A stretch of 64,000 nt of DNA from Tetraselmis striata (lineage: Eukaryota > Chlorophyta > Chlorodendrophyceae > Chlorodendrales > Chlorodendraceae). The stretch spans positions 1 to 64,000 of the forward strand of contig VCJN01000828.1 of assembly GCA_006384855.1 (NCBI GenBank), given 5' to 3'. The position numbers and the translations under genes are program-made. The notes under the pieces are model-generated. The model saw only the letters and a program-made list of their open reading frames with translations, did no database searches and was not told the origin of the DNA. Position 1 is the first letter of the stretch. Every line of letters starts with the position of its first letter. Positions 13,190-56,081 of the stretch are shown one piece after another.

Positions 13190-13226
<37 letters not shown>

Positions 13227-13523
13227 CCCCCCACCCCCAACGCCCCCGCCCCTTCGCTCTATTATGACAGTATTTGTTGCATACATACACTAGCACACAT
13301 GTATGAGTTGTTTCATGTAATGCATTCAGCAGGAACTTCATGCCTTTCGCAATATCTGCGGAGAAGCTTATTGCAAAGGTGAAGCTTTCACTAATGCAAA
13401 ACCACAAACATAATGGCAAGTCACTAGCGCAGCTGGGAATCGTAATTCTATCTATCAACACCGAGGCATTGCAGTTTGCACCCCCATCTCCGAACGTGGC
13501 GCCAGCTGCGCGGTATACATGTG
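11315..13523 (+). CDS. DDE-like transposase-family gene, 5' part (exons before the LTR insertion)
   Basis: Coding-like blocks run from MSVSTRHTVKVEVKWDGK (11315) through ELDERIAVVVVEHELSS, ERLHNLILDWLKERKAGWTK (from about 11785), MERLDLSSRDFGSVF (12268) and KLEALSTVAYEIINVNNYII (from about 12560), to a long open block 12626-13190 ending LVYDLRLLNGKTKNK and FDPFWAEL. The block FMPFAISAEKLIAKVKLSL (13336-13520) closes at ACAT|GTGAGT. Introns with long poly(C) (13193-13227) separate blocks. The pattern matches a widespread uncharacterised family of algae and cnidarians known to me only by its later motifs; see the 19090 and 35398 segments. Frames change several times, partly at introns, so exact exons are unsure. 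A duplicated CTAGAGTATGCAGTGAAC (11414, 11450) breaks the first exon. Confidence 0.5.
11712..11756. repeat. Perfect hairpin, 18-bp arms, 9-nt loop
   Basis: ACTGCTTGGTTGGGCTGC (11712-11729) is followed after 9 nt by its exact reverse complement (11739-11756). It lies at the end of a coding-like block of the DDE-like gene. It could form an RNA stem in the transcript or be a tiny foldback insertion. Confidence 0.85.
12152..12180. repeat. Perfect hairpin, 12-bp arms, 5-nt loop
   Basis: GCTAAACCCTTT and AAAGGGTTTAGC flank CCTAT. It is followed by A-rich repeats of AAAACCC type (12186-12212), reminiscent of short telomere-like CCCTAAA words, in what is probably an intron. Confidence 0.75.
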
Positions 13524-13569
13524 AGTTTTTCTTTTGTCGGTGGTCACCTTCTATTTATATTTATGTACG

Positions 13570-13992
13570 TGTGAGGTACAGTAATGCCCTAATGCAATTA
13601 GAGGCAAGAAGGCAAAGGTTGTAAGGAAACAATATCGAATGTTACAGGATCATCAGCTGGTTCAGCTATTTATCGGCAGTCAGCAGCACATAGGCAGAGC
13701 AGCGGCAGAGCAGTTCAGCGGTCCGTCTTGGGCATATCGGAAATATAGCATCGGGGAATGTCAGAAGCAGCATCGGGGAATGTCAATAGCATTATCGGGG
13801 AATGTCAGTACCAGCATTGGGTACGGTTAGTAGTAGCATCGGTGATTGGGATTGATAATGATAAATGGTATGCGTACATGTTACAGTACAAGTTACAGAA
13901 GTACGGCAGGTAGCGATATGATATAGGAAATGATACTAATATGAGATAAGTGGTTATGTGGGTATAGTGCAGGGTTAAGTGTAGTCCTAACA
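13570..13992 (-). repeat. 3' LTR
   Basis: The 423-bp copy closest to 13570 matches 18618-19040 at about 97 percent. It contains short internal repeats of the type GCATCGGGGAATGTCA. Confidence 0.93.
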
Positions 13993-16900: not shown

Positions 16901-18617
16901 ATGACGACCCGTATTTTATTATTTAGAGGTTGAGAGGGTAATTTGTTTAGGCGGACATACCTATCAATATTAATAAAGCTAAGGGTAGCGCCGCTTATCG
17001 AGTATCATAGTAGCGGGCGGTAAAGCAGGATGTTCAGTTAGGGTCGGTTGCGTAACAACAGATTGGTGTCGTTCATAGACGTTATATAAAGGACTTTTCT
17101 GTTTTAAAGCGGGGTTGGTGCGACTTGACCCGGGCACGCGGGATGTATGTCTTACCTTGAGATTCGTAGCTGGGGGCTTTGTAGTCCTCAGTGGCCATGA
17201 CATAATTTATGGCAGCAGCCTCACGTTCTTCGATGGTGCTATCTGCGAGGTATACGTCAACTATCCACTGTGTGGGTGGCATTGGCAAGTCCTCAGTGGC
17301 AGATGTGGCAGTGTAGAACAGGTACTCGCGGGGTAGGGATGGAGTCGTTTGTACTTTTCAGTATAGGGGTACAAGATTTCCCTAAGTCAGAAGACCAGCG
17401 GGGCAAAATGATTATAGCACGGGTGTTATAAGGTGATTCCTGAGTCTCAAAATGTTCGAGAATTGGTAATACCGATTCGTCGTACGGTGGAGTTATTCGT
17501 ACAGTATGACAATTGCTGAAGTGGAGGTAAAGGGTTTATCCTTAGAGCAGTACTGAGGGCAAACAGCGTCAAACGCAGAGGCACAAGCGTCCATAGTTTA
17601 TGGGACCATATGTTTAGAGTTAAGTAGAGACATTTCAGTTGTATCAAAACGAGTAGAGTCAGGTGGGCAGGCAGTTGGTCGTTTTATAATCTTTTTAGCC
17701 CGCCGTTGTTTAGCGTACTGGCGTTGGCGGAATTGTCGAATAGCAGAACGTTTCTCAGTACGAGACAGGCCCTCGGTTGGATTATCCGCAGGGATGGCAA
17801 AGTCAGCGGCAGACAGGGACCTACGAACCTGCTCGCTGGTGAGCGACTCTGGTTCGTACGACTCGGTGGGCAATACCGAGGAGGCCTCAGCTTGTGCATC
17901 AGCCACTAGGGCGGCGGTAGCCGGGCTATTCTCGTCCGGATTCAGTGCCATTGGAGATCGGGCCTCAGAGGTCGGGGGATAACACGGCGGAGCTGGGACA
18001 AATTCGATTGAATTATAATTCGAATGCTGACAGCATACTCCGCCCCAACCCGTCATTGGTCATTCAGGTTCATGGCCTCAAGACCCTTAGAGGTTTCGGT
18101 GGCAGCCACTTTAGCTTGCTAAGCTTTTGTCAGCGAGGTTAGTCTCAGGGCAGACTATAACAGAATGGCCTACTTTACTATAGCCAGAGCAGGTTTCAGT
18201 ATAACGGCAATATCCGGCCAAGCCATAGCGGCGAATTCAGCGTCGACAGTTTCAAGGTGGCAACGAAGGGTGTCCAGGGTAGCAGCTGGAAGGCTCGGAC
18301 GGCGTCGATCGGTAGGGATGTCGTTGGCAGGGGAAGCGTGCGGGCGCGGCGGTGGGGGGGGGGGGGGGGGGGGCGAAGTTACGTCCATTGGCGATGCGTG
18401 GATGATGTCCGTGGCTAGGGCTCGGGTTGTTGGTTTGGCCAGCTAGGCCCGGATCACACGGGCCACCGGGCGGTGTCAATCTGTACTTCGATGGTTAGCG
18501 GCAGCGGCGGCGGCAGTGACAGGCTGGTCGTTCACGATGGCGGGGGGGGGGGGGGGGGGGGATCATACGCGGTGGAAGCGCGGCGGGGATCTTTAACCAG
18601 AGCTCGAACGAAACCAA

Positions 18618-19040
18618 TGTGAGGTACAGTAATGCCCTAATGCAATTAGAGGCAAGAAGGCAAAGGTTGTAAGGAAACAGTATCGAATGTTACAGGATCA
18701 TCAGCTGGTTCAGCTATTTATCGGCAGTCAGCAGCACATAGGCAGAGCAGCGGCAGAGCAGTTCAGCGGTCAGTCTTGGGCATATCGGAAATATAGCATC
18801 GGGGAATGTCAGTAGCAGCATCGGGGAATGTCAGTAGCAGTATCGGGGAATGTCAGTAGCAGCATTGGGTACTGTTAGTAGTAGCATCGGTGATTGGGAT
18901 TGATAATGATAAATGGTATGCGTACATGTTACAGTACAAGTTACAGAAGTACGGCAGGTAGCGATATGATATAGGAAATGGTAATAATATGAGATAAGTG
19001 GTTATGTGGGTATAGTGCAGGGTTAGGTGTAGTCCTATCA
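18618..19040 (-). repeat. 5' LTR
   Basis: This is the partner of 13570-13992, at the 5' side of the element in its own orientation. It is followed outward by the target duplication GTACG (19041-19045). Confidence 0.93.
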
Positions 19041-19089
19041 GTACGGCAGTATGTGCACATGCCATGTGCCGACGTTTGGAGTTTCTCAA

Positions 19090-19767
19090 CAAGCATGCTG
19101 AAGTTGGTGCACATGGTGTTGTGCCGTACGTTGCGGCAGTGCCACATTGACTCCTACTACAGCGCAAAGAACCAGAAGAAAATCCGACAATACTCTGTGC
19201 TGGTGAAGAACATGCTAGATGATGCCGGTTATCCATACGTGGTGGTAGCATACGTGTCGTCAGATGATAACGCGAAGATTGCCATCGGCGAGCCGAAGCT
19301 GCCCATTGCCTTGTCTGACAGGGGAAAGGCTAGCTGTGTGCCAATCAGCGATGACGGCCAACCCTTTAACGATGCAGGCGATCATGAGTACTCCGGCCAG
19401 TCTCTTGTCCCTTATGTGAACCTGATATCTGAGATGTATGTGCCCGAGGATCGCAATGTGGACAAAGCGAAGCCCGCCGTATACAAAGGTGACCACTGCA
19501 TGGAGGGATGTTTTTATACTAATGTGTGTGCTCAATGAATGCATGATGCATGTTAATATTGAAATACTTTTGTCGATATCTGCAAGTGTTCATATGATGT
19601 ATCATGTTTTGCGTTGCTCAGGTACATCTCACGTATGTGACGCTGAAGGACGCCGTCTTCCTGGCATCAACTCATGTGCGGCATATGACAGAGTTGTGGG
19701 AGGATCTGATGGTCCAACTGTGAGGACTGCCACACCCTGAAGGTGTTTGTGGAAGTGTTCACCGATG
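19090..19767 (+). CDS. DDE-like gene, middle part (between the LTR element and element D)
   Basis: The segment reads LCRTLRQCHIDSYYSAKNQK, then YVVVAYVSSDDNAKIAIGEP, LPIALSDRGKASCVP and VDKAKPAVYKG (to about 19487), an intron, and TYVTLKDAVFLASTHVRHM (19625-19720), ending KVFVEVFTD at 19767 after one frame change. SSDDNAK..IGEP is the first acidic signature of an uncharacterised DDE/RNase H-like family found in algae, sponges and cnidarians (recalled pattern, not a search). The reading is interrupted exactly at 19767 by element D and resumes at 35398. It is joined to the 5' part by the intron holding the LTR retrotransposon. Confidence 0.65.
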
Positions 19768-19802
19768 CACTCGTCGAAACGTGGTCCGCTTAACCGCGCT
19801 TA

Positions 19803-20463
19803 CCAAATAGTAAGCTCGAGTAAGCGCATGTATTTAGCTTAACCTCCGCTTAACGTTGAGCGCCACAGTACTTTATTTCAGGCTGGAGGCATGTGTACGG
19901 CAGAGATGTATTGCACCGAGTACTAGAGAATAGCGTGACGAGTAGCGCCACGACTACAGGTAGTCGCGAGTCATCACTATAGGGCATCGGCAGTACCAGT
20001 AGTCGCACCAGTAATTCACACCAGTAGTCGCGAGTCATCCGTATAAGGTACGGCGGGAGTGGCACAGGTACCGTACTTTGCGATACTATAGAAATTACAA
20101 AAGCGCGGCAGTAAGCGCGACTACTCGCGAGTAGTCGCGGGGGTTCAAACATAACAGGCGGGGCCTGCATTACTGTTCGCTACATACCGACAACGTTATA
20201 GAGACATCGGGAATGAATTTCATGCGGGCGGCGGATGGTTCGAGGTTTTATCAGAACAGAAGTGCCAGGCTGGATGTTACCAACCCAACAGCCAATGAAA
20301 GTGGAGCTTCTAACTGTAGTTAAGCGCGTTTAAGCACGCTTAATCCTATCTGGCAAATTTAACAGGCGATTATCGGTCACTTTCAGTTTTATGCAGGTGG
20401 GGTCGGACACTGTGCGAAAGTACTGTGACACAAACCAGAAAATGTAATTACATGGGACCTCTA
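19803..20463. other. Left subterminal region of element D
   Basis: No gene is seen. The stretch is full of short motifs such as AAGCGCG, GCTTAA and CGACTACTCG / GAGTAGTCGCG, scattered in both orientations. Similar words occur near D's right end (35250-35380) and near 63890-63960. They look like transposase-binding subterminal repeats, by analogy with En/Spm. Confidence 0.5.
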
Positions 20464-21382
20464 GCTAGTGCCCGCGGCCGCCGCCGCGGCGCGGCGGCCT
20501 GCTACTGCTGCCCGGGGGCTGCGCTACGGTGGGCCTCTTCTGCTCGGTCTGCCTCGCCCCTGTAGCTGCGGCTTGTGGGGTGGTGTTGTCTATTACCATG
20601 CATGCCATCCGCTGCCCTCGGCTAAGGTGTTGGCTGCTCGTGGGCTGCTTACCTGTTGCTGCCGCTCGCAGATGCGCTTGCTTGTGTTGACGCCGAGCTT
20701 GCATCCTCGCCGTATCAACGAAGTTGGAGGTCACACGCACACGCCCAGCTGAAGCTGTTTGCATGTTGGTCATATCATGCAGCGGGGGGGGGGGGGGGGG
20801 CTCGAGCAGCACGGGGGACGGGAGCAGGACGACTGAACTGGGGAGGGGGGCTGGAGCCGGTAGATTGCTTGTGCAGTGGGTTGCCGTTCATGTCGATGCC
20901 GGACCTAAGTTAAAATAACAAAAAACAAATAATTTAGTCGTTGTGACGTCGTCACCACATGCATAAGGCAGCGTGCGTGCAAGCGGCTAGCACCAACTGC
21001 ACAGACATCTCGGACTCACCTTTCCGCGGCGGGGGTTCTGGTAGGGTTGGCATCGCCTTTATCCGCCGAGGAGAGAGCACTGCTGATCAAAGCGGCAGCC
21101 TCCTCGACCTCGGTCAAGTAGGGGGGTAGGGTGCTGGAACCTATTGCCGGCAGCGTAGCGATATTCAGCTGCCACCAACTGCTCCTTACCCCAGTGGCAC
21201 ATGAAACGTGCTTCGTAGCTCCTGTCCGTCGAGTCTTCAGCGTCCTCCAGGCACGTGTACACGTTCATGCCTTGCACTGCCTCGCGTGAGGTGTTGTTGA
21301 AAGCGCAGAGGCGTGCAAGAGTCAACGGCCCGCCTACCTTAACCTCGGCATCCTCGGCTGACAACAACCTGGCGCACGTCAC
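20464..21382 (-). CDS. Unrecognised minus-strand gene of element D
   Basis: An upstream exon (to about 21020) reads MNVYTCLEDAEDSTDRSYEA and EQLVAAEYRYAAGNRFQHP, then, after a frame change in a G/C run near 21125, LTEVEEAAALISSALSSADK, ending at a good donor, GGAAAG|GTGAGTCC. A downstream exon (20464 to about 20780) is basic and Gln/Ala-rich (RMQARRQHKQAHLRAAATGK), preceded by a poly(C) tract on the coding strand. No catalytic motif is seen. Its place near the left terminus parallels the 49517-50884 gene of element B, so a DNA-binding accessory role is possible but unproven. Confidence 0.4.
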
Positions 21383-22284
21383 ATGGTGGAGGAGGGGCAG
21401 CCCCTGCGGTAGGGGAATGTCCTGAGGCGGCCCATACTCCGCCGGCGGGGGCTATCTTCGCCGGCGGAGAGAAACGCTGCGCCTCCAGAGTCGTCATGGT
21501 GGCTGGAAAGGGGGGGGGGGGGGCGATGGTGTTGATTGAAGTGCTGGCGGACTCCTGCGGGTCGTGCGACGACTACAAGTACGGGCGGTATACTAGTCAA
21601 TACTACTGTTGCTGTCATCATTATCACTTGGTGACTAAGTGATATATGTAGAACCCGGTAAGAAGTGATGCGGTGTAGTATTAATGTACTGTATATCAAT
21701 ACCTTATTGTGATTACGGTACCTGGTACCTGGGTACCCGGGCCGACACAAATCAGCATGCCGACGCACAATACCACAACCCATAAATAATGCTGTGAACT
21801 ACCAGCAACATGGAGATGCATCAGCACACGATCAAAATATGCATGGCATAACATGAAATGCTCAAAACTGCATAGTACATGCACATATAATCTTGTTTGG
21901 TTACAACGCTCGATGAGGTATGATATTACGCTCTATCGCGGCGCCCAGAATGTCAACGCACATTGCGCGGCATGATGTCTCATGTATGACATGCCTGAAA
22001 AATCATTAATGATGCAGATTTAAATGAATGTAATTGACAGACAAGGTTTGGGAAAGAAATATGTTTTTCCAGTACGGGTTGGAAACCGCAGACCCACCCG
22101 GCGCCTATATTCATTTTTCCTGCGCCAGCCATATTATTCTACGTGAAAATACTGCGCAGCAACTTGATGTACTAACACTCAGGACAGTAGCCTACCCTGC
22201 GCTGCCATGCCCCCAGAGACATTTGAAGCGCTAATCATGCATGCTTATGAGCCGCAATGCATGCTGAATAAACACGTGATGTTG
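21383..22284. other. Non-coding stretch of element D
   Basis: No credible gene. The left part has a 14-bp G run (21510-21523); the rest is A/T-rich, with short palindromes around GGTACCTGGTACC (21718-21730). Confidence 0.4.
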
Positions 22285-23153
22285 TTACGGCAGCTCTGCA
22301 GCGCCGCCATCGCCATCGTCCAGATCATTGTGGGAAACGGCGGTGTCCTTGGCATGAGAGTGCTTCACATAGGAAGCCCACCTGGTGAAAGCTAAATCAA
22401 CAGTATCATGCCAGTGTCCAAACAAAACATGAGATAAGTGAAAGCCGGGCAGTTGGAGGGCGTTGCTGACATACCTCAATATCTGCATGGGCGCAGCATC
22501 AGCAACGGCCATCTCGCGCCGCCGACCCCTGCCAGCAGTGTTGGCGGAAATCGCCTCTGTCCAGGTGTATGTGACCAGCCTGCCTTGCGCGATGATGAGT
22601 GGGAAGACGAAATCCGGCCGGAAGACTGCATTCACTGCGCCGTCCCAGATCCTGGTGCTGATTGGTCTTGATAGAAGCCAACGCCAACGGTAAGCGTCTC
22701 CAACTGCGAAGACAATTGGAGGCGAAGCCAGGAGGTTGTCTAGGGCGTAGCACTTTGCCGCAACGAAATAGCTTACTTCAATCTGAAGATCTCCTGGAAC
22801 CTATAATGGTTCTCTCCCTCTGCAGCCCCAGTTGGCCCAAAGTCCACACTGGCTCTCGGTTGAGTAGTCTGCGGTATGTAATGGTCCAGGGGCCGAAGGA
22901 CTGCACCCCAGTTCTCCCACAGCCGGGCTGTGTACACCCATGCATTGCCCTTCGACCAGCGGCTTACAAGCAGTATACATTGTAGGATTCCTGGTCCGGC
23001 TTCATCGCCATCATGCGGCCATAGTACGTTAGCCTGTAGTAGTCCGGCGGATGATAGATGTAAGTGTGCTTTGAATGCTGCTAGACTATCACACAAGGCA
23101 TACATGCATGTGGGCAGAAATATAAAGCACTTACTTGATATTCGCCGTATCAT
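22285..23153 (-). CDS. Unrecognised multi-exon gene fragment
   Basis: Minus-strand coding-like pieces: DYYRLTYYGRMMAMKPDQES ending at CTT|GTAAGC (about 22972); RWSKGNAWVYTARLWENWGA (22860-22960); YALDNLLASPPIVFAVGDAY (22690-22770); and PDFVFPLIIAQGRLVTYTWT (22540-22615), running on to RREMAVADAAPMQILRYVSN. The residue mix is that of a real globular or membrane-associated protein and the splice signals are plausible, but I do not know the family. It lies inside element D and may be a captured host gene fragment. Shadow frames on the plus strand (22438-22985) are less protein-like. Confidence 0.35.
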
Positions 23154-23204
23154 CCCTCAGGGGGAAAAAGGGCGATTATTGAGTCAAAATGGGCACATTT
23201 CTGG

Positions 23205-39067: not shown

Positions 39068-40912
39068 TTACATCTGCCCCTTGAAGCCCGACAATCTCGA
39101 TACGCTTTGGCCTAATCCGCGATAGCGCGCGCGCGCGGCAGTGCTAGTGAGCGGGCGCGCGGCAGTGGGCGGCGTGGCGCGCGGCAGTGGGCGGGCGGAA
39201 TAAATTACTTGCATCCGGTTTTGACTAGGACCGCCTCGGCGGCCGGCCTGCGGCTCGCGGGTGGCCTCAACGGCTACGGCGGCCCGGCGGCCGGCCCGCG
39301 ACCCGAGCGCCCCACCGCCCGCCCTGGCCCCGGCACCACCCCGGCCCTGGGCCAGCCCTCCAGCCGCCGGCTTGGCGGGCTGCTTGGCCTTCTTGGCCGG
39401 GGGCTCCGGGCTACTGCCCTCGTCGACGTTGTCGGTGGGGACGGCTTGCGTGGCGGCCAGGTTCTTGACCGCGTTGGTGTTGTGCTTGATGATGCCGCCC
39501 GCCCGCTTCTGCTGCTGCGCCAGCACGCCCACCAAGCCGTGGAGCTTTGGCGACGCAACTGTGCCCGCCAGCGGCAACGACACGATCTTGTTGCGCTGGA
39601 CACTCGATACGATCGGCTTATTACCGCCGAACGTAGGGACTGGACGGGAGTTTGACACAGCAACTGCGAAAGTCAGTATGCGTGTTGATTGCTTGTCGTG
39701 GCGGCAGTGGTTGTGTAATCGAACAAGTGCGGAAACAAACGCGACTCAACTGCGGCTTCCCAATGCGGCGTCACCTCGCAGACCTCCTCCTCGCCCTTGA
39801 ACATCACGTTAGCATGGGGGCACTTGCCGGCTTGGTAGTACCTCCCCAGTTCGCTATGGTGCCATGCCTCTGCAAAGTCGAGGGCCTTCGCGAGCCCGTC
39901 CGCGCTCGGCAATGGTCCCTTCTTCCTACCTCCTTGGCTGTCCTTGCCCTCATCCTGGAAGTAGTACCGAGCGAGGTAGTTCCTCACGTTCCCCATGCTT
40001 CCTGTACATCACGAGGTGCACCGTCAGCACGGCCCACAAGGATGGTCACAGTGGGGTTGGGAGGAAGGGGGAGGGGGTGCACTCTCGGAACGCGGCAATG
40101 ACAGCCTCCTTGGCGTAGACGACGTTGCCAGCTGTGTAGCCAGCACGGTAGTTGAAGGTAGTGCAGCAGATTCGCTCGGTGTACGGGGGCGCGGCGATGG
40201 GAAACCTGTGCGTCTTCTTCAGAGAGTAAGGGATCCCCGTCTGAGTGTCGCGCGGCCAGCATTCGTCAAAGACAGCCGAGAGCACCGCCTTGTCCTTCGC
40301 TGCAAGAGCAAAAAGCAATACGCGGCACGGGGCGGTCAACGCCTGTGAAATTCAAATCCTCCACGCAGTCATGTCAGCCACTCGCCGACTCAGTGTACCT
40401 TTCAGAGTGGACTGGAGCCCCCGGCTCGTAGTGAGAGTATGGGATGGACCGTCGGTGGAGGCGTTCTTAACGCCAGTGCCCAAGTTAGATCCTACGGCGG
40501 GGGGGGGGGGGGGGGGGGGGAGGTGTGGCGCCGCCTCGGGGGCTAGGTTCTAGATCTGGGCACGCGTCGCGTCGGATACGCACGAGGTAAAATACAGCGT
40601 GACGACACCCGAATCGGACACTTGAAAACATGCCTCAAGCAGGTGCTTCTTGCCGGCTACGTCGTACTGCTTTGGCTCAGCGCTGTTGTTCAGTATGTCT
40701 ACGAAAGCATAGCCGAACGCGTCCTCGCCCTGGGGTTGCTCTGGGTGAACGCGGATATGGCTATTGGTCGCCTGGCCGTGGAACAATGCATGCCGCACGT
40801 CCTCAACGATGCAGCCCGTGCTGCACAGAGCACCGAGTGGTATGGTCATCCCCTCAGGCCTCACAGCTTTGCCGTAGGGTGTGCATGGAATTAGCTTGGC
40901 GTGGGTGGCCAT
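39068..40912 (-). CDS. Unrecognised spliced minus-strand gene
   Basis: Blocks in coding order: MATHAKLIPCTPYGKAVRPE with AFVDILNNSAEPKQYDVAGK (40550-40912); SNLGTGVKNASTDGPSHTLT (about 40400-40495), ending AAAG|GTACAC; after TTGCAG, KDKAVLSAVFDECWPRDTQT and RICCTTFNYRAGYTAGNVVY (40046-40300), with a matching phase; GNVRNYLARYYFQDEGKDSQ and ALDFAEAWHHSELGRYYQAG (39673-39996); and after TTTCGCAG a basic Pro/Ala-rich tail (39068-39650) with PPAKKAKQPAKP, a possible nuclear signal. An intron near 40499-40520 holds poly(C) on the coding strand. The phases that match support a real gene. It sits beside the DDE-like gene and could be its partner in one element, but no domain is recognised. Confidence 0.45.
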
Positions 40913-41268
40913 GATGGAGGGTGCGTGCTGGGGGATGAGCAGCTACGGTACTGTCTACCGGGTGCGAGTGTGCGTCAGGCGGCGCAGCTGCTGCTTTAGT
41001 AAAAAAACACCAAGTCCGGCGCCGCGCGCCTAGACGACTTATCATCGCGCTCCGCTGTTAGCGCACTCCGGCTTGTTGTGTAATCATCGCGTAATGTCCC
41101 ATATATATCCCGTATTTGTTTGCATGAGGACACATTTGACACACACTTGCGACAGAACCGCAATTCGGCCGTAGCTAACCCTTAACGGGGAATGATCTCG
41201 TAATCTGGCGTACTCCGCTTCTAAATCGACTGCACGTGTCTACTGCACAAGCCCAAACAGTAAGACAA
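40913..41268. other. Stretch without a gene, left of element B
   Basis: It should contain the promoter of the 39068-40912 gene, which is transcribed to the left. No motif or repeat is recognised. Confidence 0.35.
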
Positions 41269-41308
41269 CACAGTGAGAATGAGATGTGACATACGGGTGA
41301 CGAAGCAC

Positions 41309-41310
<2 letters not shown>

Positions 41311-41361
<51 letters not shown>
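41311..41361. repeat. (GA)n microsatellite = (TC)n tail of the LINE
   Basis: About 25 GA dinucleotides lie directly against the left target duplication. LINEs of several clades end in simple repeats rather than poly(A), which fits. Confidence 0.9.
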
Positions 41362-41364
<3 letters not shown>

Positions 41365-41589
41365 CATTACAATCATAAATGAATTGGCGTGGCTAAAGGG
41401 CATCACGCGGCCCGTGGGTCCGAATTTAGAGCCCTAATTAAACCCAAAATAAATGTACCGACGGACAATTATCCGGCGGGGGGCAGCTGATACTACGGGA
41501 CAGCCAAGCTCTGTATAACAGAGGGCTGCCAGGTCAGAACTGTCCCGTGCGAGCTGTCGCGCGCCCTAACCTCGTTCACACCAACAAGG

Positions 41590-42741
41590 TCAAGGCGGCT
41601 TAGGGCGGGCCGGTCGGGGCGGGCGCCCGTCCCGATGTATAACCGAACGTTTATTCTGCTGCGGGCGGTGCATTCTCGTCGCGTCCGTCTTCCGCTTGCA
41701 CAGGATCTCGGCACAACGCGGTCCAGGCGGGGCGGGCGGGGGAAGGGCTTCGGGGGGAGATGGTCTTGGGGTCTTCGAGGCCTTCATCTGTTGACGCTTG
41801 GAGGTAAGGGTTTGTCTGTTATGCGCGCTCCGATGGCGGAGCAGCTGTACCAGGCGGGTCGATGTAACCCGTCGTACATCCTGCAGGAGGCCTCGGAGCG
41901 GCGTCCGCACCGAGCGCGTCGAGCCAGTCGCCAGCAGCGAGCTGAGGGCTGCCTCCGTTTCGGTAAGTAGACACCCCGCTACCCCCACCGGGACAACCAC
42001 TAGCGTGGCGGAGCGCCAGCGGGTGCGGAGGGCGGATAGGAGGGGCTCATATTTAGCCTCTTTCGCTGTTTTCTTATCGGCGCATCTCAGGTCTGCGCAG
42101 CAGCCGACTTCCACCAGGACGAGGTCACAGTCCTGGGGGTGGAAGTCGGCGCCAGGCCTAGGGTCGGGGAGCACGGGGACCCCCCGGGCACATACAATGT
42201 CCGGGCGGGCCCCACAGCCTTGGTCTCGAAGTGTTAGAAGGTCCGCTGTTGGCAGGACCCAGGGAGGGATGTCCCGGGGCACATCGGGCGCGCCCAGCCA
42301 CTCCGCCACATCCGGGCGGCTCTCCGGGTAGTCATGTAGGTCAAGGCACACATCGTAGTGCCGAATATCGGGCTGTGCGTGTCCCGGAGGGGGTTGGCAG
42401 GGTGATACTGGTACATATTCTTCCCCGTCCGTGGGCAGATGTATATCTTTACAGCCCGCATCACAGGACACTAGCTTGAAGCAGCCAGCCCAGTGAGCTT
42501 CACCCCCTTTCGGGGAGCTGCGCTGGAGGGCTAAGCTAATAAGGCGGACAATAGCGTTATGCCGATCGATGTAGAACCCCGCAAACCTAGGGCACCCACC
42601 AGCCAGGTGGGTGCTTGAGTCGTCCATCCCGCAATGTGGGCAGGCCTCAGTTTCGCAGTGTCCGCATAACTTGGCGTGTTTACCAGTGTAAAACTGCCCG
42701 TGCAGGAATTTGAGGAGGAAGCCGCCCGCCCCCTGTGTCAC
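41590..42741 (-). CDS. LINE ORF, C-terminal part: CCHC zinc knuckle and restriction-like endonuclease
   Basis: The frame of 383 codons begins near the end of the upstream frame (overlap 42680-42741), probably after a one-base shift at about 42738. Cys34, Cys37, His45 and Cys50 (CPHC, then H in STHLAGGC, then C) form the CCHC knuckle that precedes the endonuclease in R2-type LINEs. The endonuclease core shows ARPDIVC (Pro180-Asp181), LVLVEVG (Glu211) and KEAKYEPLLSAL (Lys230-Tyr231), the PD...E-x...K-KY pattern of restriction-like LINE endonucleases, which nick the target to prime reverse transcription. The tail is basic and Pro-rich. The assignment rests on motif order and position. Confidence 0.75.
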   Translation of the reverse strand: MTQGAGGFLLKFLHGQFYTGKHAKLCGHCETEACPHCGMDDSSTHLAGGCPRFAGFYIDRHNAIVRLISLALQRSSPKGGEAHWAGCFKLVSCDAGCKDIHLPTDGEEYVPVSPCQPPPGHAQPDIRHYDVCLDLHDYPESRPDVAEWLGAPDVPRDIPPWVLPTADLLTLRDQGCGARPDIVCARGVPVLPDPRPGADFHPQDCDLVLVEVGCCADLRCADKKTAKEAKYEPLLSALRTRWRSATLVVVPVGVAGCLLTETEAALSSLLATGSTRSVRTPLRGLLQDVRRVTSTRLVQLLRHRSAHNRQTLTSKRQQMKASKTPRPSPPEALPPPAPPGPRCAEILCKRKTDATRMHRPQQNKRSVIHRDGRPPRPARPKPP

Positions 42742-45700
42742 CGGGTTTGGGCATGCGGGTGAGCTGGCGGAAGAGGCTAACCAGGTGAGGCGCTGTCAGG
42801 CCCTCATCCCCCAAGGAGCGGTCGATCAGGGACTGATAGAGGCAGGGTCCCGCCGAGTACCTAGAGACCCGAGGGAGGGTTAGTTTTGCCACTACCCGCG
42901 GGGTAGGGACGGGGCGAGGGGGGGAGTCCTCCGCGGTCGGGGCCTCGGGGCCGTCCGACAGCGGGTGGGACCTTGAGGGGCAGCTGCCAATGCGGGGCCA
43001 GAACCGTGGCAGATAGTCTACCCTGCCAACATCATAGTCCAGTATCGGGGATGTATGGTCAGGGGGTTGCTCCTCCAGCAGCTCCGCTACTACAGACTTT
43101 GCAGCTGCGTCCGCCAGTTCGTTGCCTCGCACATCGGCGTGGGCCGGTACCTTTCCCAGTGTAAGCGTGTGGTGCGGTGTGTCTAGGTGGCGCCCCACCG
43201 CCAGCGCGACGGCCTGGAGGAGGGGGCGGTGGATGTCTAGCCTGTAGGCTTCCGGCTGGCGACAGAACCCCGCCACCTTCAGGAGGGAGACTTGGCTGTC
43301 CGTGAGGATACGCAGGTGAGGCTTGTGCGGGTGTAGCAGTATCGCTTGATGTATCGCGGTAAGTTCAGCCCTTAGGATCGTGTTGTTGACCCCCACTCCG
43401 GTGGCATTTAAGCGGGTGCAGTGGCCCGTGTCCGCGTGTATAACAGCGGCGCCCAGAAATCGGTGCCCCTTTCGTTTCGAGCCATCTGTGTACGCAAATG
43501 TGCTAGCAACCCATATGTGTACAAAGGGTGGGGCCGACGGGGGGAGAGGTACCGGCTGGGACGGGGCATCAGGGGCCGGGAGCGGCTCCCGAGGGCGGTC
43601 GGGGGCGGGGTAGGTCGCCCGCAGCCATCCGGTCACATGCTGAGGCTTTGTGCCCGCACAGGCCACGGCGGAGGGCGGAGGGCGCGGCGCCGCAGCGGTA
43701 TGAGGGTCACCCCGACAGCGGTCTGATGCGGGGCCAGGTGTTGAGACTGCGTTGGAGAATATCCAGGTGAGTTGATTAACATCTATGCACTGCCCCAAGA
43801 GGTGGCGACGGGCAGGCTCAGAGAGGTCAGGGTGGGCAGTATCCCCCACGTGCATCCCCATCATAGCCTCGCGTACATCCGCATCAGGCTCCACTAGGGC
43901 ACTTAGCAGGGGGCCTCGGTGCATCAGTCCCAGCGCGGGGCGGCCATTAGGCTGTACGCGATATGCATGGGAGCCTGGGTAGCATACAAACTTAGGTAGT
44001 ACAACCTGGTCCCGGCCCGCTGCGTTGACCGGGTCACAACCAGTAACATTGAAACCCAATCGTAGTGTTTGCGTCTGCCACAGCGAGATACCTGCTGCCC
44101 GTAGGGCAGTATTGATCGAGGTGTCGGGGGCACGAGGGAGGCGCGCATAGGCACTCTCCAACGCTCCCGGCAATGCGAGGTTGTGCCAAAATATAGCCTT
44201 CCGGGCGGCGTGAGAGCCGCACGGTGGGGCATTCACCACTATACCGGTTCCCAAAAGGGAGCGGACTTCCGGGTATTTCGCGGCACCAGGGACGTTTTCG
44301 AGCACATATGCCACCCCATCCCGTTGGGTGTACATCAGGTGGGATATTATATTCACCGCGCTACCCAGCGCAGTGCTGCGGGCGTCTCTTAGCCCTTTAC
44401 GCGTCCCTGCGACGGAAAAGGGCTGGCAAGGAGGCCCAGCGACCACCACATCTGCCCCCAGGGGGAGCGCAGTACGTAAGATTTCTGGGGTGATAGAGTT
44501 TATATTCCCAGGTAAGGAGGAATCCCAACGTTCCACAGCCTGGGAGGAAAGGAGCTGCGGGTAGCGGTGCTGTAGCCGTTTTATTCGGTGGCTAACAGCC
44601 TGACGTGCATCCGGGTAAATATCGGCCCATACGTATCGAGAGACACGGTAGCCAGTTCGGAGGAGAGCCTCTAGGCCAGTGCCGATGCCGGCGCACAGCT
44701 CCAGGACCACAAGCCCTCTGTCTTTAGGGAGGTAGTGTGGGGAGCGCATGCGGTCATCGTGTAGGCTTTGCGGTCCAGCCCAGCGCTGGGGTAGGCCCCG
44801 TAGGTGTAGAGCCGAAGGCTGCCCGGCTCGAGCGGGGGGCTCCATTCGGGAGGGAGGGGTCGCGGCGGAGGGGAACATCTCGACGTGTAGGTCCAACTGG
44901 CCGCTCATGGAGCGGAGAGCGGTGGCTAGAGAAGTTTCTGCCTGCGTTAGGTCAAAGTAGGTGTCCAGGCCCGCGGGATTAGCAACCAAATAGATGTCCA
45001 CAGGCCATTTCGCTCCAGGGGTGCTCTCGGCAGCGGTCGGGTCCTCTGGGGAGCGGTCGGAGGGGATGAAGTGGAACGCCTTGCGGGGAAGGGTGCACAA
45101 GAGGTGGACTTCCGGGTGGGAGGTGATCTGGGCATGGAGGTGGGGGGAACCCTTCCATCGGGGAAGGACGAGTGCGCATCGGAAGGGCGTGTGCCCCGCT
45201 GCATCACAAGAGAGCAGTGCATGGAGCATGGCCGCACGCATATCTTCCGGGACGTATTCCGGGTTGGCGATACAGGACCCGGTCCATATGTGGGCATACG
45301 CATCTGGTATGGCACCAAAGGCACTATCCTCCGCATACGCAGAGCAGTACGTAGAGTTGGCAGAGATGTGACAGTTAAGCGGGCTAGCAAACAGTTCAGT
45401 GCGTGTAGAGCAGCAGTCCCGCAGGGCCTGCATGACCGGCAGTGGTATAGCCCAGTGGTTGCGCAGGTTCGGTTTACGCCCCTGTGGGAGGTCCTCAGGC
45501 GCTGTAATTGAGTACCGGAGGAGCAGACTGCTGAGGGCAGTTAGGTAGGAGGCTTGAAAAGATGGGGTACTCCAGGTGTGAGGAGGCTGATCTGACTGGT
45601 GACAGTAGTGCTGCCAGGCAAATCGATACCGTTCCGGGGTGAGAGTGCGTTGGGTCACAGCCCGGCCCACCGGGTCACAGATCCGGACTATGGGCCCAGC

Positions 45701-46555
45701 ATCCGTGTGTACTGTGTACGCCGCATAATGGCCTGTAGCCGGGGCGTCCCGATCCGGATCTATAGGATTCAGGGCGATATTAAACCGTTGGCCGTAGACC
45801 GGGAGGGGCTGCAGGGGTATCGGGCGGGGAACAGCTGTCCTCCCTAAACGGCGTGCGGCGTATATTTCGCGGCATCGGGCCTGTTTGGCCCTTGCCAGGC
45901 AGATCGCTGCGGAGCGCCTGCCACGCCGCTGCCGGACCCTGCCATGTAGTGGTAGGTTGGTCACGTCACATGGTTCTGGGTAGTGTTCAGCCTGGGGCGA
46001 GGCCGAGAGGGGTATACCAGGGGGCGGGGAGGGGGGCAGAGAGGCCGGTTGCTGGGGGGAGGGCGGCGTCTCCGGCGAGCGGCGTCGCTTCCGTCGAGGG
46101 GGAGAGCCTAGGTGGGGGAAAGGCCTCGTGCGGCGGGCCCGATGTAGGACCGGGGTACGGGCCAGCTGCCTCCTCACGGTCGGGGGAAAGTAGAATTCCA
46201 TACGGACAGGTGTAACATGATTGGAAGACACATCGTCACGGTGTGTTGGCGGGGTTGGGGCGCTAGAGGACACCGCAGCTGCAGCCATGTCCCGTTGGCA
46301 GGTGACCAGGGAGGGAAGTCGAAGAGGCCCCCGTCTCCACCGTGAGTGGACTTTAGGGGGGATTCTGAGACTATCAACGGCTCGTACGTTTAGGAGGCTG
46401 GGGAATAGGGCAGTCCGTGCCTGCTTAGAGTCCGAGAGCAGAAGGGACTGGAGAAACACCCAAGCCTTTCGCGTACGTAAGGTGTTGGCACATGCCGGGA
46501 CGGTACCATCCAGGAGGGCATCTGTCCACCCTTTAATCGTGACATGAGCACGTGA
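42680..46555 (-). CDS. LINE ORF, central part: PCIF1-like methyltransferase, C5-cytosine methyltransferase and RNase H
   Basis: This is an uninterrupted frame of 1259 codons from Met 46459, open upstream to about 46555. Residues ~300-500 resemble PCIF1/CAPAM (mRNA cap m6Am methyltransferase): FASPLN, TYCSAYAED, then ANPEY at 398-402 where PCIF1 has NPPF. Residues ~583-903 form a C5 DNA methyltransferase: motif I ELCAGIGTG, catalytic PCQPFS (Cys678), YVLENVPG (Glu721), and ARKAIFWHNL, AGRDQVVLP and ARRHLLGQCI as in DNMT3-type enzymes. Residues ~986-1120 form RNase H: YTDGS (Asp992), RAELTAI (Glu1032), LTDSQ (Asp1054) and GNELAD (Asp1117). All C5-methyltransferase and RNase H key residues checked are present. 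Likely roles: cDNA second-strand processing, and methylation of new copies or host DNA (inference). Confidence 0.88.
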   Translation of the reverse strand, partial: SRAHVTIKGWTDALLDGTVPACANTLRTRKAWVFLQSLLLSDSKQARTALFPSLLNVRAVDSLRIPPKVHSRWRRGPLRLPSLVTCQRDMAAAAVSSSAPTPPTHRDDVSSNHVTPVRMEFYFPPTVRRQLARTPVLHRARRTRPFPHLGSPPRRKRRRSPETPPSPQQPASLPPSPPPGIPLSASPQAEHYPEPCDVTNLPLHGRVRQRRGRRSAAICLARAKQARCREIYAARRLGRTAVPRPIPLQPLPVYGQRFNIALNPIDPDRDAPATGHYAAYTVHTDAGPIVRICDPVGRAVTQRTLTPERYRFAWQHYCHQSDQPPHTWSTPSFQASYLTALSSLLLRYSITAPEDLPQGRKPNLRNHWAIPLPVMQALRDCCSTRTELFASPLNCHISANSTYCSAYAEDSAFGAIPDAYAHIWTGSCIANPEYVPEDMRAAMLHALLSCDAAGHTPFRCALVLPRWKGSPHLHAQITSHPEVHLLCTLPRKAFHFIPSDRSPEDPTAAESTPGAKWPVDIYLVANPAGLDTYFDLTQAETSLATALRSMSGQLDLHVEMFPSAATPPSRMEPPARAGQPSALHLRGLPQRWAGPQSLHDDRMRSPHYLPKDRGLVVLELCAGIGTGLEALLRTGYRVSRYVWADIYPDARQAVSHRIKRLQHRYPQLLSSQAVERWDSSLPGNINSITPEILRTALPLGADVVVAGPPCQPFSVAGTRKGLRDARSTALGSAVNIISHLMYTQRDGVAYVLENVPGAAKYPEVRSLLGTGIVVNAPPCGSHAARKAIFWHNLALPGALESAYARLPRAPDTSINTALRAAGISLWQTQTLRLGFNVTGCDPVNAAGRDQVVLPKFVCYPGSHAYRVQPNGRPALGLMHRGPLLSALVEPDADVREAMMGMHVGDTAHPDLSEPARRHLLGQCIDVNQLTWIFSNAVSTPGPASDRCRGDPHTAAAPRPPPSAVACAGTKPQHVTGWLRATYPAPDRPREPLPAPDAPSQPVPLPPSAPPFVHIWVASTFAYTDGSKRKGHRFLGAAVIHADTGHCTRLNATGVGVNNTILRAELTAIHQAILLHPHKPHLRILTDSQVSLLKVAGFCRQPEAYRLDIHRPLLQAVALAVGRHLDTPHHTLTLGKVPAHADVRGNELADAAAKSVVAELLEEQPPDHTSPILDYDVGRVDYLPRFWPRIGSCPSRSHPLSDGPEAPTAEDSPPRPVPTPRVVAKLTLPRVSRYSAGPCLYQSLIDRSLGDEGLTAPHLVSLFRQLTRMPKPGDTGGGRLPPQIPARAVLHW

Positions 46556-47366
46556 GCACGCGGGATGGACACTTCGAAGGTGTCAGTAGCTGTTTCCAGG
46601 TGGTAAGGCCCGCCTCCCAAAGGGGCGCAAGGCGGGCCGGGAGCAGCTCAACATGGGGGAGAGCTGCGGCCCGCGCCGTAGCTGAGGCCACACAGGTCAT
46701 AGGGAAGGCAGTGGTAGCGGTGGAGAGAAGCTCCCGGGCAATATCGTTGCCCTGCCAAAGTCTGTCCGCGTCTCCTCCGAGATAAACGCCCGCTTGGCGT
46801 AGGATCGCGATACCGCGGCAGAAGGGGCCAGCCTCACTCAGGTGGGCAGCACTGGCCGGCCACCGGGCGTAGCACGGGGCCCTGGCTCGGAGCACGGCCG
46901 TCGCGAGGCGGCCGATGGGGCCAGTATTGTTTAGGATATCGGTGTAGGAAGTGGACAGAGCGCCGACGTAGTCCGACATAAGTGAGGGCACGCCCAGGCC
47001 TAATTCCGCAGCGGGAGCCTGTAGACCCGCGGTAGGGAAGCTACGTGGGAGTTTAAATATGCGTCGGGTCAGGCTAGCCATAGCTGCATCCATGGCCGCT
47101 ATGTCCGATGGGGCAAGGTGCGCGGTGGCCCAGGTATGGCGCAGCTTGGACCTAGTGGCATATTGAACTAGAGTATGTCGCACCCCGTCTGGCAGCGTGG
47201 TGTGCCGTACTAGGGAGAGGGCATCCTGCATCACCGTCTTGGCCCAGGCGACTGCGGCATCTGGGGACAGGTCCGCAGGGACCTGCACCCCCAGAAATCC
47301 GCCTTTGAGGCAGCCGTGGGGTCCCATGGGAGGGAGGCCGTGCCCGCCTAACGTGAGGTGGGACAT
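46533..47366 (-). CDS. LINE ORF, segment after the RT palm (thumb/connection)
   Basis: A 277-codon frame with GGFLGVQVP, a Leu/Ala-rich helical stretch (SLTRRIFKLPRSFPTAGLQA, ELGLGVPSL) and FCRGIAILRQAG. The composition matches the region between RT and RNase H in many LINEs. It joins the upstream RT frame and the downstream 1259-codon frame only through frameshifts near 47370-47440 and 46545; the downstream frame continues as HVTIKGWTDALLDGTVPACA. Confidence 0.7.
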   Translation of the reverse strand: MSHLTLGGHGLPPMGPHGCLKGGFLGVQVPADLSPDAAVAWAKTVMQDALSLVRHTTLPDGVRHTLVQYATRSKLRHTWATAHLAPSDIAAMDAAMASLTRRIFKLPRSFPTAGLQAPAAELGLGVPSLMSDYVGALSTSYTDILNNTGPIGRLATAVLRARAPCYARWPASAAHLSEAGPFCRGIAILRQAGVYLGGDADRLWQGNDIARELLSTATTAFPMTCVASATARAAALPHVELLPARLAPLWEAGLTTWKQLLTPSKCPSRVLTCSCHD

Positions 47367-47385
47367 GCGGCTCCGGACTGCCTCC

Positions 47386-48900
47386 TCACGGTCGCGTATG
47401 GACAGATGGGCTAGGGCGGTGACCCACGCGGTAGTCGCATTTAGATATGCTAGGCTTTATGCCGGACCAGTTGCAAAAGGCATTGAGTTTATTGAGTTGG
47501 ATCTGCAGGCTTTGTAGGTCACTGGCAATGAGGGTGGTATCATCCGCGTACATGACGTGGGGGATGTCCGAGTCGGGGTCGTTCACTGTGGCTACGGGAA
47601 TGTATCCCCGGAGTCCATTCTCCAGCCACAGGGAGAGAGGTTCCGTCATGAGGAGGTAGAGCAGGGGGGAGAGTGGATCACCCTGTAGGGTGCCACTCTC
47701 CACCCGCACCGTATCCGTTAAGCCCCGGGGGGTTATAAACGAGGTCCGGGAGCCGGAATATATGGTATGGACTATAGAGATCAGGTATTGGGGAAGTCCC
47801 AGGTCTCTAAGAACTCGTATCAATTGGGTGTGGTTAATAGAGGGGAATGCCCCTTAAAGTCGATGTACGCCAGGTAGGCGTCGCCTTTGCCTGCCATGGC
47901 ATCCTCTAGCACTAGGGAGAGAGTGGTCACGGCTTGCCCGCCATTTTTGCCTTTCTGGAAGCCAACCTACCTGGAGGGGGGATAGTATGCCCTTCCTAGT
48001 GACCAGATCAGAGGTGAGGTCAGTAAGGATAGTCGTCCACAATTTGTATATAGCATTGGCCAGGCTAATGGGACGGTAATTGTCCACGAGGAGCGGGTCG
48101 CCCTTTTTATATAGGAGGCAGGTATGGCTATGTAGCCATGGGTCGGGAGTGTGCTGGCTGAGCAGCATCGCCCGGAACAGGAGCTCCAGTGCATCGTGGA
48201 AGGGCTGTGGCATGCAGCGCAGGATAGTTCCTGGGACTTCGTCCGGGCCCGCGGCTTTGTTATTGGGGATGCGCGAGACCGCATCCGTATACACAGACAG
48301 TTGGTACCCGTCCCGCAGCAGCGGGGAGCCCGGGGAGGCCGGACCAGGAAGCGTGATGGGGTCCGGTGCCCCCGGGGACTCCCACGGATAGGGTGCTGAG
48401 GGGTGTACCTCTGGGTTGGGAGCGAGGGCTGTTTGCTGTGCACGGTGGACCTCAGCTTTAACCGCATCGGGGGTGGTGTGTACCACGCCGGTGACAGGGT
48501 CTCGGACTGCAGCAAGGGCGATATGATGGCCGGCCCTGCGCTGTAGAATCGAGAGGGCACGGGCGGGCTGCGAGACAGCCATTTTGTTAATGTAGGAGTT
48601 GAAGCGGTCTCTCCGAATTTTGGAGAAGTCGCGGTCGAGGCTTTTAGCGGCACACTTTAGCACCCGGAGTACTCCGAGCAGACCCTCCGCAGCTACGGCG
48701 GTCTCCGGGTTCTGCCCTTCACCGGCAGGGGAAGGGAAAGAGGCAGCAGGGTCGTCGGGGTCAATACTCAGCGCTGCACAGTGCGCCCGCATGGCGGCGT
48801 CCCAATCGAGGACGATGGGGGCGTAGCACGGCGCACGTAGTGGGAGGGGATGGATGAGGCCAACGGTGCGTAAGGCCCGGGCAGCAACGCGGGCGCCCAC
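47386..48900 (-). CDS. LINE ORF, reverse transcriptase
   Basis: Two frames joined by frameshifts near 47855 and 47990. The first, from Met 48900, has IRRDRFNSYINKMA, NNKAAGPDEVPGTILRCMPQ, HTCLLYKKGDPLLVDNYRPI and SLANAIYKLWTTILTD, which are RT motifs 0-2 of LINEs. A short bridging frame gives VGFQKGKNGGQAVTTLSLVL and AYIDFKG (catalytic Asp of motif A). The second has ESGTLQGDPLSPLLYLLMTE (motif B) and MYADDTTLIA (YADD, motif C, about 47539-47550). There is no N-terminal apurinic endonuclease and no N-terminal zinc finger within the copy, consistent with an endonuclease at the C-terminus. Confidence 0.88.
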
Positions 48901-49516
48901 TATGTGTCTGTGTCTGATTTTCCCAACCCTGGGGAGGTAGGAGGACGAAGCACTACTACTAGCGACTCTGATTTATTTGTGAAGGCTGCTGCTGGTGGCG
49001 GCATGTCCATCCAGTTACGTACGAGTACATCCGGCGTTATTGCCGGCGGGCGATAAACCTTTTTTGTAATCATTGTGGTAGTCGTATTAGCGCGGTGACG
49101 CGTTACATGGCACGTATAAGGTACGAGGTTGTCCGTGTAGTACCGGGTAGTACGCGATATATTTATTAAGCCGGTACCGGGTATCTAGTACGAACCCGGG
49201 CGCAATGACGAATCGTCTTGTGGGTAACTACGACTATTAGTACATGGGAGCGCGAATCTCAGCCGTACTATTCGGCCAAAGTGGGGAAATTCGTGTACAT
49301 TGTAGCTAGTACTGCGGAACGGGCCTGCCCGCCGTCCGATCAAAGGTCATCAGACAGGCGGTTTGGCTGCCATGTTTGGCCAAAGAGTGCTCACGTTACA
49401 TAAATATTTGCGAGGGGGAGGGGGGGCAGGCAGCGCTTTGCCGAAGAATGTTTGAATTACAATATTCGCGACAGCTGCCGTCGGGGCGTGTGGCGGGGGG
49501 GGGGGGAGGGGGGGGG

Positions 49517-55461: not shown

Positions 55462-56081
55462 CACTGTGAGATTCAGATGTGACATACGGGTGACGAAGCA
55501 CTACTACTAGCGACTATTATTTATCCGTGAAGGCTGCTGCCGGTGGCAGCACGTCCATCGAGTTACGTGCGAGTACATCCGGCGTTATTGCCGGCGGGCG
55601 ATAAATCCTTTTTGTCATCATTCTGGTAGTCGTACTAGCCCGGTGAAGTGTTACATGGCACTGACGTATAAGGTACAAGGTTGTCCGTGTAGTACCGGGT
55701 AGTACGCGATATATTTATTAAGCCGGTACCGGGTATCTAGTACGAACCCGGGCGCGATGACGAGTCGTCCTGTGGATAACTACGACTATTAGTACATGGG
55801 AGCGCAAATCGCAGCCGTACGTATTTGGTAACAGTGGGGAATTTTGTGTACATTATAGCAAGTACTGCTGAACGGGCCTGCCAGCCGTCCGATTCAAAGG
55901 TCATCAGATGGGCGGTTTGGCTGCCATGTTTTGCCAAAGAGTGCTCACGTTACATAAATATTCGCGAGGGGGAGGGCGGGGGCAGGCAGCGGTTTGCCGA
56001 AGAATGTTTGAATTACAATATTCGCGACAGCTGCCGTCGGGGCATGTGGCGGGGGGCGGGGGGGGGAGGCGGGCGGGCGTG

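Follow-up and report, generated by a model that had tools for sequence, protein, structure and literature searches.

A LINE of Tetraselmis striata with a PCIF1-family domain and a C5-cytosine methyltransferase in one ORF2 protein

The window analyzed here is a stretch of 64,000 nucleotides from the green alga Tetraselmis striata (assembly GCA_006384855.1, contig VCJN01000828.1, positions 1 to 64,000; contig C653 in the numbering used below). It contains an inserted retrotransposon of the long interspersed nuclear element (LINE) type, whose open reading frame 2 (ORF2) holds two METHYLTRANSFERASES: a PCIF1-family domain and a C5-cytosine methyltransferase. The coordinates of the identified features are presented in Table 1. 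A preliminary description of this sequence had proposed an insert with a 12-bp target duplication, with no strand given; the insert was borne out and assigned to the minus strand. Its joined flanks could be aligned, with two single-base gaps, to a paralogous empty site in the same window (one of the gaps is at the artificial join, one base off at the duplication), and the limits of the insertion are established by the duplication together with this empty site. Within positions 40800-49500, the region of the window copy examined for long terminal repeats (LTRs), the longest direct repeat is 34 nt at 74%.

Table 1. Features of the LINE copy and its target site in the window
Feature	Position	Strand	Basis
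Inserted element, 5'-truncated copy, 7633 bp	41311..48943	-	12-bp duplication and empty paralogous site
Target-site duplication GACGAAGCACTA, element's 5' side	48944..48955	.	repeated 12-mer
Target-site duplication GACGAAGCACTA, element's 3' side	41299..41310	.	repeated 12-mer
Paralogous empty target site	55462..55609	+	aligned joined flanks; blastn 90% and 93%
ORF2 piece a, before reverse transcriptase and its first part	47857..48943	-	open frame, runs on to 48972 past the element
ORF2 piece b, reverse transcriptase with YADD	47389..47853	-	RVT_1 3.5e-15 (Pfam)
ORF2 piece c, after reverse transcriptase	46536..47456	-	open frame; no Pfam match; colinear with C2687 ORF2
ORF2 piece d, 1300 codons: PCIF1-like, C5-methyltransferase, RNase H	42683..46582	-	open frame and Pfam
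PCIF1-family domain, NPEY replacing NPPF	45122..45550	-	PCIF1_WW 3.4e-15; PDB chain 6irx 9e-7
C5-cytosine methyltransferase (ELCAGIGTG, PCQPFS, ENV)	43688..44770	-	DNA_methylase 5.1e-9; DNMT3A catalytic chain 8e-4
RNase H domain	43091..43498	-	RNase_H 4.4e-11
ORF2 piece e, C-terminal: CCHC and restriction-like endonuclease motifs	41593..42795	-	open frame; no Pfam match; colinear with C2687 ORF2
CCHC motif CPHCGMDDSSTHLAGGC	42592..42642	-	sequence; C, C, H, C spacing also at C1440 and C1704
PD...VEV...KY, restriction-like endonuclease motif	42049..42207	-	sequence
3' tail (CT)n on the element strand	41311..41362	-	tandem repeat 41310-41362, 100%

The coding part of the window copy consists of five open pieces in differing frames (pieces a-e). 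Profile searches identified the reverse transcriptase (RT), PCIF1, C5-methyltransferase and RNase H domains in the order given in the preliminary description, all four above the curated Pfam cut-offs (for PCIF1_WW, PF12237, 56.5 bits in the 1300-aa frame, with a cut-off of 31.1); the PCIF1 and DNA methyltransferase (DNMT) matches that it had named as a check were obtained. The motifs SPLN, YCSAY, NPEY, ELCAGIGTG, PCQPFS and ENV are all present in the translation, while the CCHC and PD...VEV...KY parts were recognized by motif, without a profile. The PD, E and KY residues of the putative restriction-like endonuclease (RLE) are kept in a related element on contig C1440 despite 26% identity. Piece a alone gave no Pfam match, and the region corresponding to it in the copy on contig C2687 overlaps the RVT_1 match of that copy. 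Comparison with this open copy revealed five frame-breaking indels in the window copy, one of them common to contig C2172, and no stop among the 2442 compared codons. These indels could represent assembly errors or very recent decay.

The genome assembly (224 Mb, 2903 contigs) gave one RuBisCO small-subunit match, at 67.8 kb of a contig, in keeping with a photosynthetic host. With the 1300-aa frame as query, at least 37 matches were obtained in this assembly (36 of 4639 candidates were scored). At least seven matching rows are copies of this element, located on C653, C2687, C2172 and C596; among the listed matches, one is a decayed sister element (C1398) and at least 29 correspond to the DNMT part only, at 35-38%. 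C2687 contains an uninterrupted ORF2 of 3505 codons from stop to stop (12680-23194); it is preceded by ORF1, a frame of 1091 codons with which it overlaps. At this locus 14-bp duplications (TATTCCCTTATGTA) enclose an element body of 13,737 bp, whose first nucleotide is A (a single case). In its ORF2, Pfam identified RT (RVT_1, 1.5e-25), PCIF1, DNA_methylase and RNase H, and a search of the upstream segment alone revealed an APE endonuclease (Exo_endo_phos, 4.4e-7, 30.3 bits, cut-off 24.5). The C5-methyltransferase domain occupies residues 2456-2800 (approximately) of this ORF2. The first matching base of the window copy, 48942, corresponds to position 6156 of this full body, and the missing 5' part comprises, in C2687, ORF1 (no Pfam match) and the APE endonuclease. 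Residues 191-490 (approximately) of the C2687 ORF2 appeared cysteine-protease-like by eye, and this candidate was dropped when Pfam gave nothing.

It is nearly certain that RT, the PCIF1-family domain, the C5-methyltransferase and RNase H belong to one ORF2 protein. Of the earlier view of one element holding all the parts, the element and the domain order stood; the window copy itself is 5'-truncated and frame-broken, and all parts in one protein are seen only in C2687. The C-terminal endonuclease proposed earlier is represented by RLE-like motifs, and the element has a second endonuclease, of the APE type, at C2687.

A second near full-length copy, on C596, is 99.25% identical to that of C2687 and has a common 12-mer at both sides; its 5' end is less clean, with about 40 bases between the 5' duplication 12-mer and the first matching base. 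Relative to C2687, stops were found at 0 of 2443 codons in C2172 and at 1 of 3497 in C596. Window positions 40801-49500 and C2172:112663-121364 contain the same insertion and flanks at 99.5%, which points to separate haplotypes or a segmental duplication. Since they share the flanks (over 8.7 kb), the duplication and the truncation at 6156, the two represent one insertion, allelic or duplicated, and an initial count of four independent copies was reduced to three insertions. Their duplications, of 12, 14 and 12 bp, are all different, and the RT and methyltransferase parts, as the preliminary description had asked of other copies, stay together in the other insertions. All three end in (CT)n (window 41311-41362, C2687:23436 and C596:59332), the tails of C2687 and C596 being shorter than that of the window copy. 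In 3 of 3 insertions (three cases only) the duplication that follows (CT)n begins with TA on the element strand.

PCIF1 (CAPAM) is the cap-adjacent N6,2'-O-dimethyladenosine (m6Am) methyltransferase, and NPPF is the catalytic motif of its family. Homology of the LINE domain to this family over the methyltransferase core was confirmed by the PF12237 and PDB matches: in a PDB search with the window domain alone, PCIF1 structures were matched at 9e-7, with NPEY aligned to NPPF, and a profile built from four PCIF1 domains of this genome, two of them in LINEs, matched PCIF1 structures at 1.9e-41. In the genome, PF12237 was found at 39 places, 29 of them above the cut-off. Four rows are copies of the element, six are without another LINE part, and four of the other 29 were examined. 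For the six (C1756, C2385, two on C1771 and two on C2359), no other LINE parts were found within the surrounding 3.2-3.5 kb. The motif NPPF is present in the host-like PCIF1 at C1756 and in C2385, NPEY in the window LINE, C1704, C1440 and C2023, and NPEH in the decayed sister C1398. The C2385 sequence (649364-649810) is a divergent PCIF1 homologue separate from the host-like C1756 gene; the same contig also has a C5-methyltransferase match at 456294-456905.

Sister LINEs were recognized at C1704, colinear with the element over RT (34%), PCIF1 (37%) and RNase H through CCHC (28%), and at C1440, colinear over RT (34%), PCIF1 (30%) and CCHC-RLE (26%). In neither was a DNMT match found between PCIF1 and the next part. 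Upstream of RT both have the GGDFQ motif expected of an APE endonuclease; the other APE motifs of the search pattern were not found upstream at these two loci. At C2023, one row has PCIF1 only within 3.5 kb around it, and for the other no ORF1 or ORF2 match was found in 3.2 kb upstream. The decayed sister C1398 is colinear over the post-RT region, PCIF1 and DNMT (33-36% aa identity). It has PCIF1 and DNMT in the same order, which indicates that the pair is not a single accident. The simplest order of events, although not proven, is that PCIF1 was gained first and DNMT later; loss of DNMT is possible. No relative was confirmed for PCIF1 in viral contigs (51 stretches) or for the 1300-aa frame in viral contigs (three pattern matches) and prokaryote genomes (15 pattern matches).

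The second domain has motifs I, IV (catalytic Cys) and VI (ENV) of C5-methyltransferases in canonical order; motifs VIII-X were assigned by eye, and motif X could be aligned to DNMT3A without significance. The preliminary description had called it DNMT3-type. In a single-sequence PDB search DNMT3A was indeed the best match (8e-4 for the whole chain over motifs I-VIII, but 0.059 for the best stretch alone), followed by HhaI (0.0012). A profile of eight DNMT rows matched HaeIII, HhaI, the tRNA(C38) methyltransferase (DNMT2 type) and DNMT3A, all at 5e-6 to 6e-5, and motif IV reads PCQ in the element and PCN in DNMT3A. Since these types score alike, the label is kept at C5-methyltransferase; DNMT3 is plausible from the sequence but not established. 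Against that type speaks the report that no DNMT3 was identified in any green alga of a transcriptome set (PMC9998398; this and the other papers given by PMC number are cited from excerpts).

The element methyltransferase is 34-36% identical to those in LTR-element frames of the same genome. In the eight aligned rows E-N-V and the motif IV cysteine are present in 8/8 and P-C-Q in 5/8. In an 18-row tree the LINE DNMT groups with eight DNMTs of other frames of this genome (support 95/97), while seven viral DNMTs (taken from 27 distant ones in viral contigs) and one free-standing DNMT fall outside; the tree carries a long-branch warning, includes no host DNMT3 and leaves the order within the group open. 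Two of the eight grouped elements were profiled and contain RVT_2 and SH3_retrovirus, the former of which we take to mark these two as copia-type; three rows are denoted retroC. Across the genome, DNA_methylase scored at a minimum of 123 places. Long frames that include a C5-methyltransferase, the longest having 2164 codons, are present on C1014, C193, C427, C1471, C1860, C1901 and other contigs. Free-standing 325-codon frames, covering profile positions 1-320 of 324, are located on C1993, C776, C1647, C2337, C355 and C1455; these six are possibly another mobile or viral family.

The RT is of the non-LTR type: ten PDB sequences were matched at 1e-3, namely R2 (9nl2, 9nl3, 9dou), LINE-1 ORF2 (9k6g, 8uw3, 8sxt, 9hdo) and RT/RNA-directed DNA polymerase (8gh6, 8ibw, 8c8j), and the closest is R2 (2e-24, compared to 3e-13 for L1). 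Other hallmarks of LINEs were confirmed: target-site duplications, 5' truncation and an empty site. The presence of the APE endonuclease (upstream of RT), the RLE-like part and RT in one frame resembles the dual-endonuclease Dualen/RandI LINEs, and the element probably lies near this group. An APE and an RLE are encoded together by Dualen, and RNase H is present in Dualen/RandI (PMC4640811). The eight tabulated green algal RandI families end in short repeats and not poly(A) (PMC3747384), and Dualen families are present in every core-Reinhardtinia species compared (PMC8226300). The element described here similarly has APE and RNase H (Pfam), RLE by motif and a (CT)n tail. Unlike these LINEs, it also carries PCIF1 and DNMT; the word "methyltransferase" is not used in PMC4640811.

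That retrotransposons have captured DNMTs, which the preliminary description had given as known, is indeed published, for a LINE, DIRS and Gypsy (PMC5890265). Like the present element, SymbioLINE-Dnmt of Symbiodinium is a LINE with a DNMT, a target duplication and no poly(A), but its DNMT, of an orphan lineage, is mostly encoded by a separate ORF that precedes the one for RT (PMC5890265), whereas here ORF2 carries the DNMT next to PCIF1, with RT and RNase H on either side of the pair. PCIF1 is not mentioned in the main text of that paper. SymbioDIRS-Dnmt3 and KnitGypsy-Dnmt3 also have a DNMT3 domain within a retrotransposon polyprotein (PMC5890265). For a DNMT3 embedded in copia elements, Copia is named in PMC12344493, and this genome itself contains copia-type elements that have a related DNMT. 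The DIRS, Gypsy and copia elements belong to other retrotransposon orders, and no PCIF1 or dual endonuclease appears in the excerpted texts. The PCIF1-like domain in turn differs from PCIF1/CAPAM in having NPEY for NPPF and in being embedded in a LINE. No PCIF1-bearing LINE was found in the literature (open-licence papers, judged from titles and listings). DNMT capture by retrotransposons is already known; PCIF1 together with DNMT in a dual-endonuclease LINE was not found within the same scope.

The question why genome parasites carry enzymes used to silence them was raised in PMC5890265. In this element a domain for marking RNA and a domain for marking DNA are joined with copying and cutting domains, and the same genome contains both DNMT-bearing copia elements and LINEs for which PCIF1 but no DNMT was found; such relatives allow a comparison, within one host, of how each domain was gained. 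The reading that we favour, at a probability of about one half, is that of a dual-endonuclease LINE which places marks on its own new DNA and either marks or reads its own RNA; the catalytic activity, substrate, timing and benefit of both domains are presumed. The ORF2 protein would bind the capped mRNA from which it was made, and its PCIF1-like domain would recognize or N6-methylate the cap-adjacent adenosine; this may protect that RNA or give it preference as template. The target would then be nicked by an endonuclease and RT would copy the RNA in place (target-primed reverse transcription, with duplications of 12-14 bp), RNase H would remove the RNA, and the C5-methyltransferase would mark cytosines of the still-bound new DNA, so that the copy would enter the genome already methylated. 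The DNA mark is likely by analogy with the de novo CG methylation demonstrated for retrotransposon DNMTs (PMC5890265). Of all the steps, the RNA mark is the least secure, given NPEY at the place of NPPF. If active, the PCIF1-like domain would provide a LINE with a means of modifying RNA caps; N6-methyladenosine (m6A) is reported to facilitate LINE-1 retrotransposition (PMC8324889). More tentatively, the lineage may have gathered a cap-adenosine writer first, which spread over several LINE families, and then a cytosine writer common with copia elements, both of which would mark the transcript and the new DNA in one complex.

Several results weigh against marking by the element. The preliminary description had suggested that it methylates its own DNA copies and perhaps its RNA, and neither received support: CpG transitions between copies (18/51, 8/32 and 8/27 of transitions, compared to 29% expected) are not in excess, and the PCIF1-like domain reads NPEY where the catalytic motif is NPPF. 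The element has an observed-to-expected CpG ratio of 0.82, compared to 0.97 for the remainder of the window; G+C content also differs between the two (0.64 and 0.57, respectively). The ratio of nonsynonymous to synonymous substitution rates (dN/dS) between copies is 0.85-0.97 for the shared ORF2 part and 1.29 for ORF2 residues 1-1056 in C596, with single-domain values of 0.18 to 1.93 from a handful of changes. With dN/dS near 1 and few changes, the recent copies display no sign of selection; they are too young, or neutral after insertion. Three of the eight aligned DNMT rows (copia-B) have PCCE instead of PPCQ in motif IV, and in C1398 motif IV is lost and no match to the RT core, RNase H or RLE was detected in the 10 kb examined. 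Both endonuclease assignments are also affected: the CCHC/RLE part matched no Pfam family above cut-off and no PDB sequence, the RLE being defined by motifs, and the APE domain gave no Pfam match in the longer C2687 protein and, as a segment, none in PDB. Single-sequence AlphaFold predictions (mean pLDDT, the predicted local distance difference test score, of 33.5 and 36.6) were useless for a fold search.

With NPEY instead of NPPF, the PCIF1-like domain may bind rather than methylate. It is possible, though on the improbable side, that it has lost catalysis and acts instead as a reader that recognizes capped or adenosine-start RNA, either to choose the template or to finish the 5' end, with only the DNMT being enzymatic. 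The change to NPEY is common to LINE types that are only 35-37% alike, so it appears kept and not a product of decay, and the host-like PCIF1 at C1756 retains NPPF; the motif nevertheless retains its asparagine and first proline, and other N6-methyltransferase families tolerate motif changes. Both domains might alternatively be active on host targets instead of the element's copies: mRNA caps for the PCIF1-like domain, or chromatin for the DNMT, which would blunt silencing or alter expression. PCIF1 proteins act on the cap-adjacent adenosine of mRNAs generally, and this genome has at least 123 DNA_methylase places, with the two that were profiled, out of at least 29 DNMT-only matches, being copia-type frames. 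In Symbiodinium, DNMT copies were argued to be able to affect the host methylome (PMC5890265). This explanation is considered unlikely: within a single frame, RT and RNase H enclose the two domains, which thereby sit at the site of copying. LINE proteins, moreover, mostly act in cis.

Passenger domains, captured once, no longer used and simply carried along, would account for dN/dS near 1 among near-identical copies, for the lost motif IV of C1398 and for the LINEs in which no DNMT was found. We regard this as quite improbable, because the PCIF1 motifs are kept across LINE types at 35-37% aa identity and the DNMT is open within the 3505-codon frame. In a post hoc comparison of C596 with C2687, no differences were observed at about 1005 DNMT sites, compared to 10 changes at about 993 PCIF1 sites, a pattern for which gene conversion is a possible cause. 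The frame-broken state of the window copy, finally, could suggest chance nesting of two unrelated genes in a LINE or a chimeric contig, an explanation given almost no credence and rejected by the same domain order in three independent insertions with three different duplications, by the single open 3505-codon frame, and by the PCIF1-DNMT pair of the divergent decayed sister C1398.

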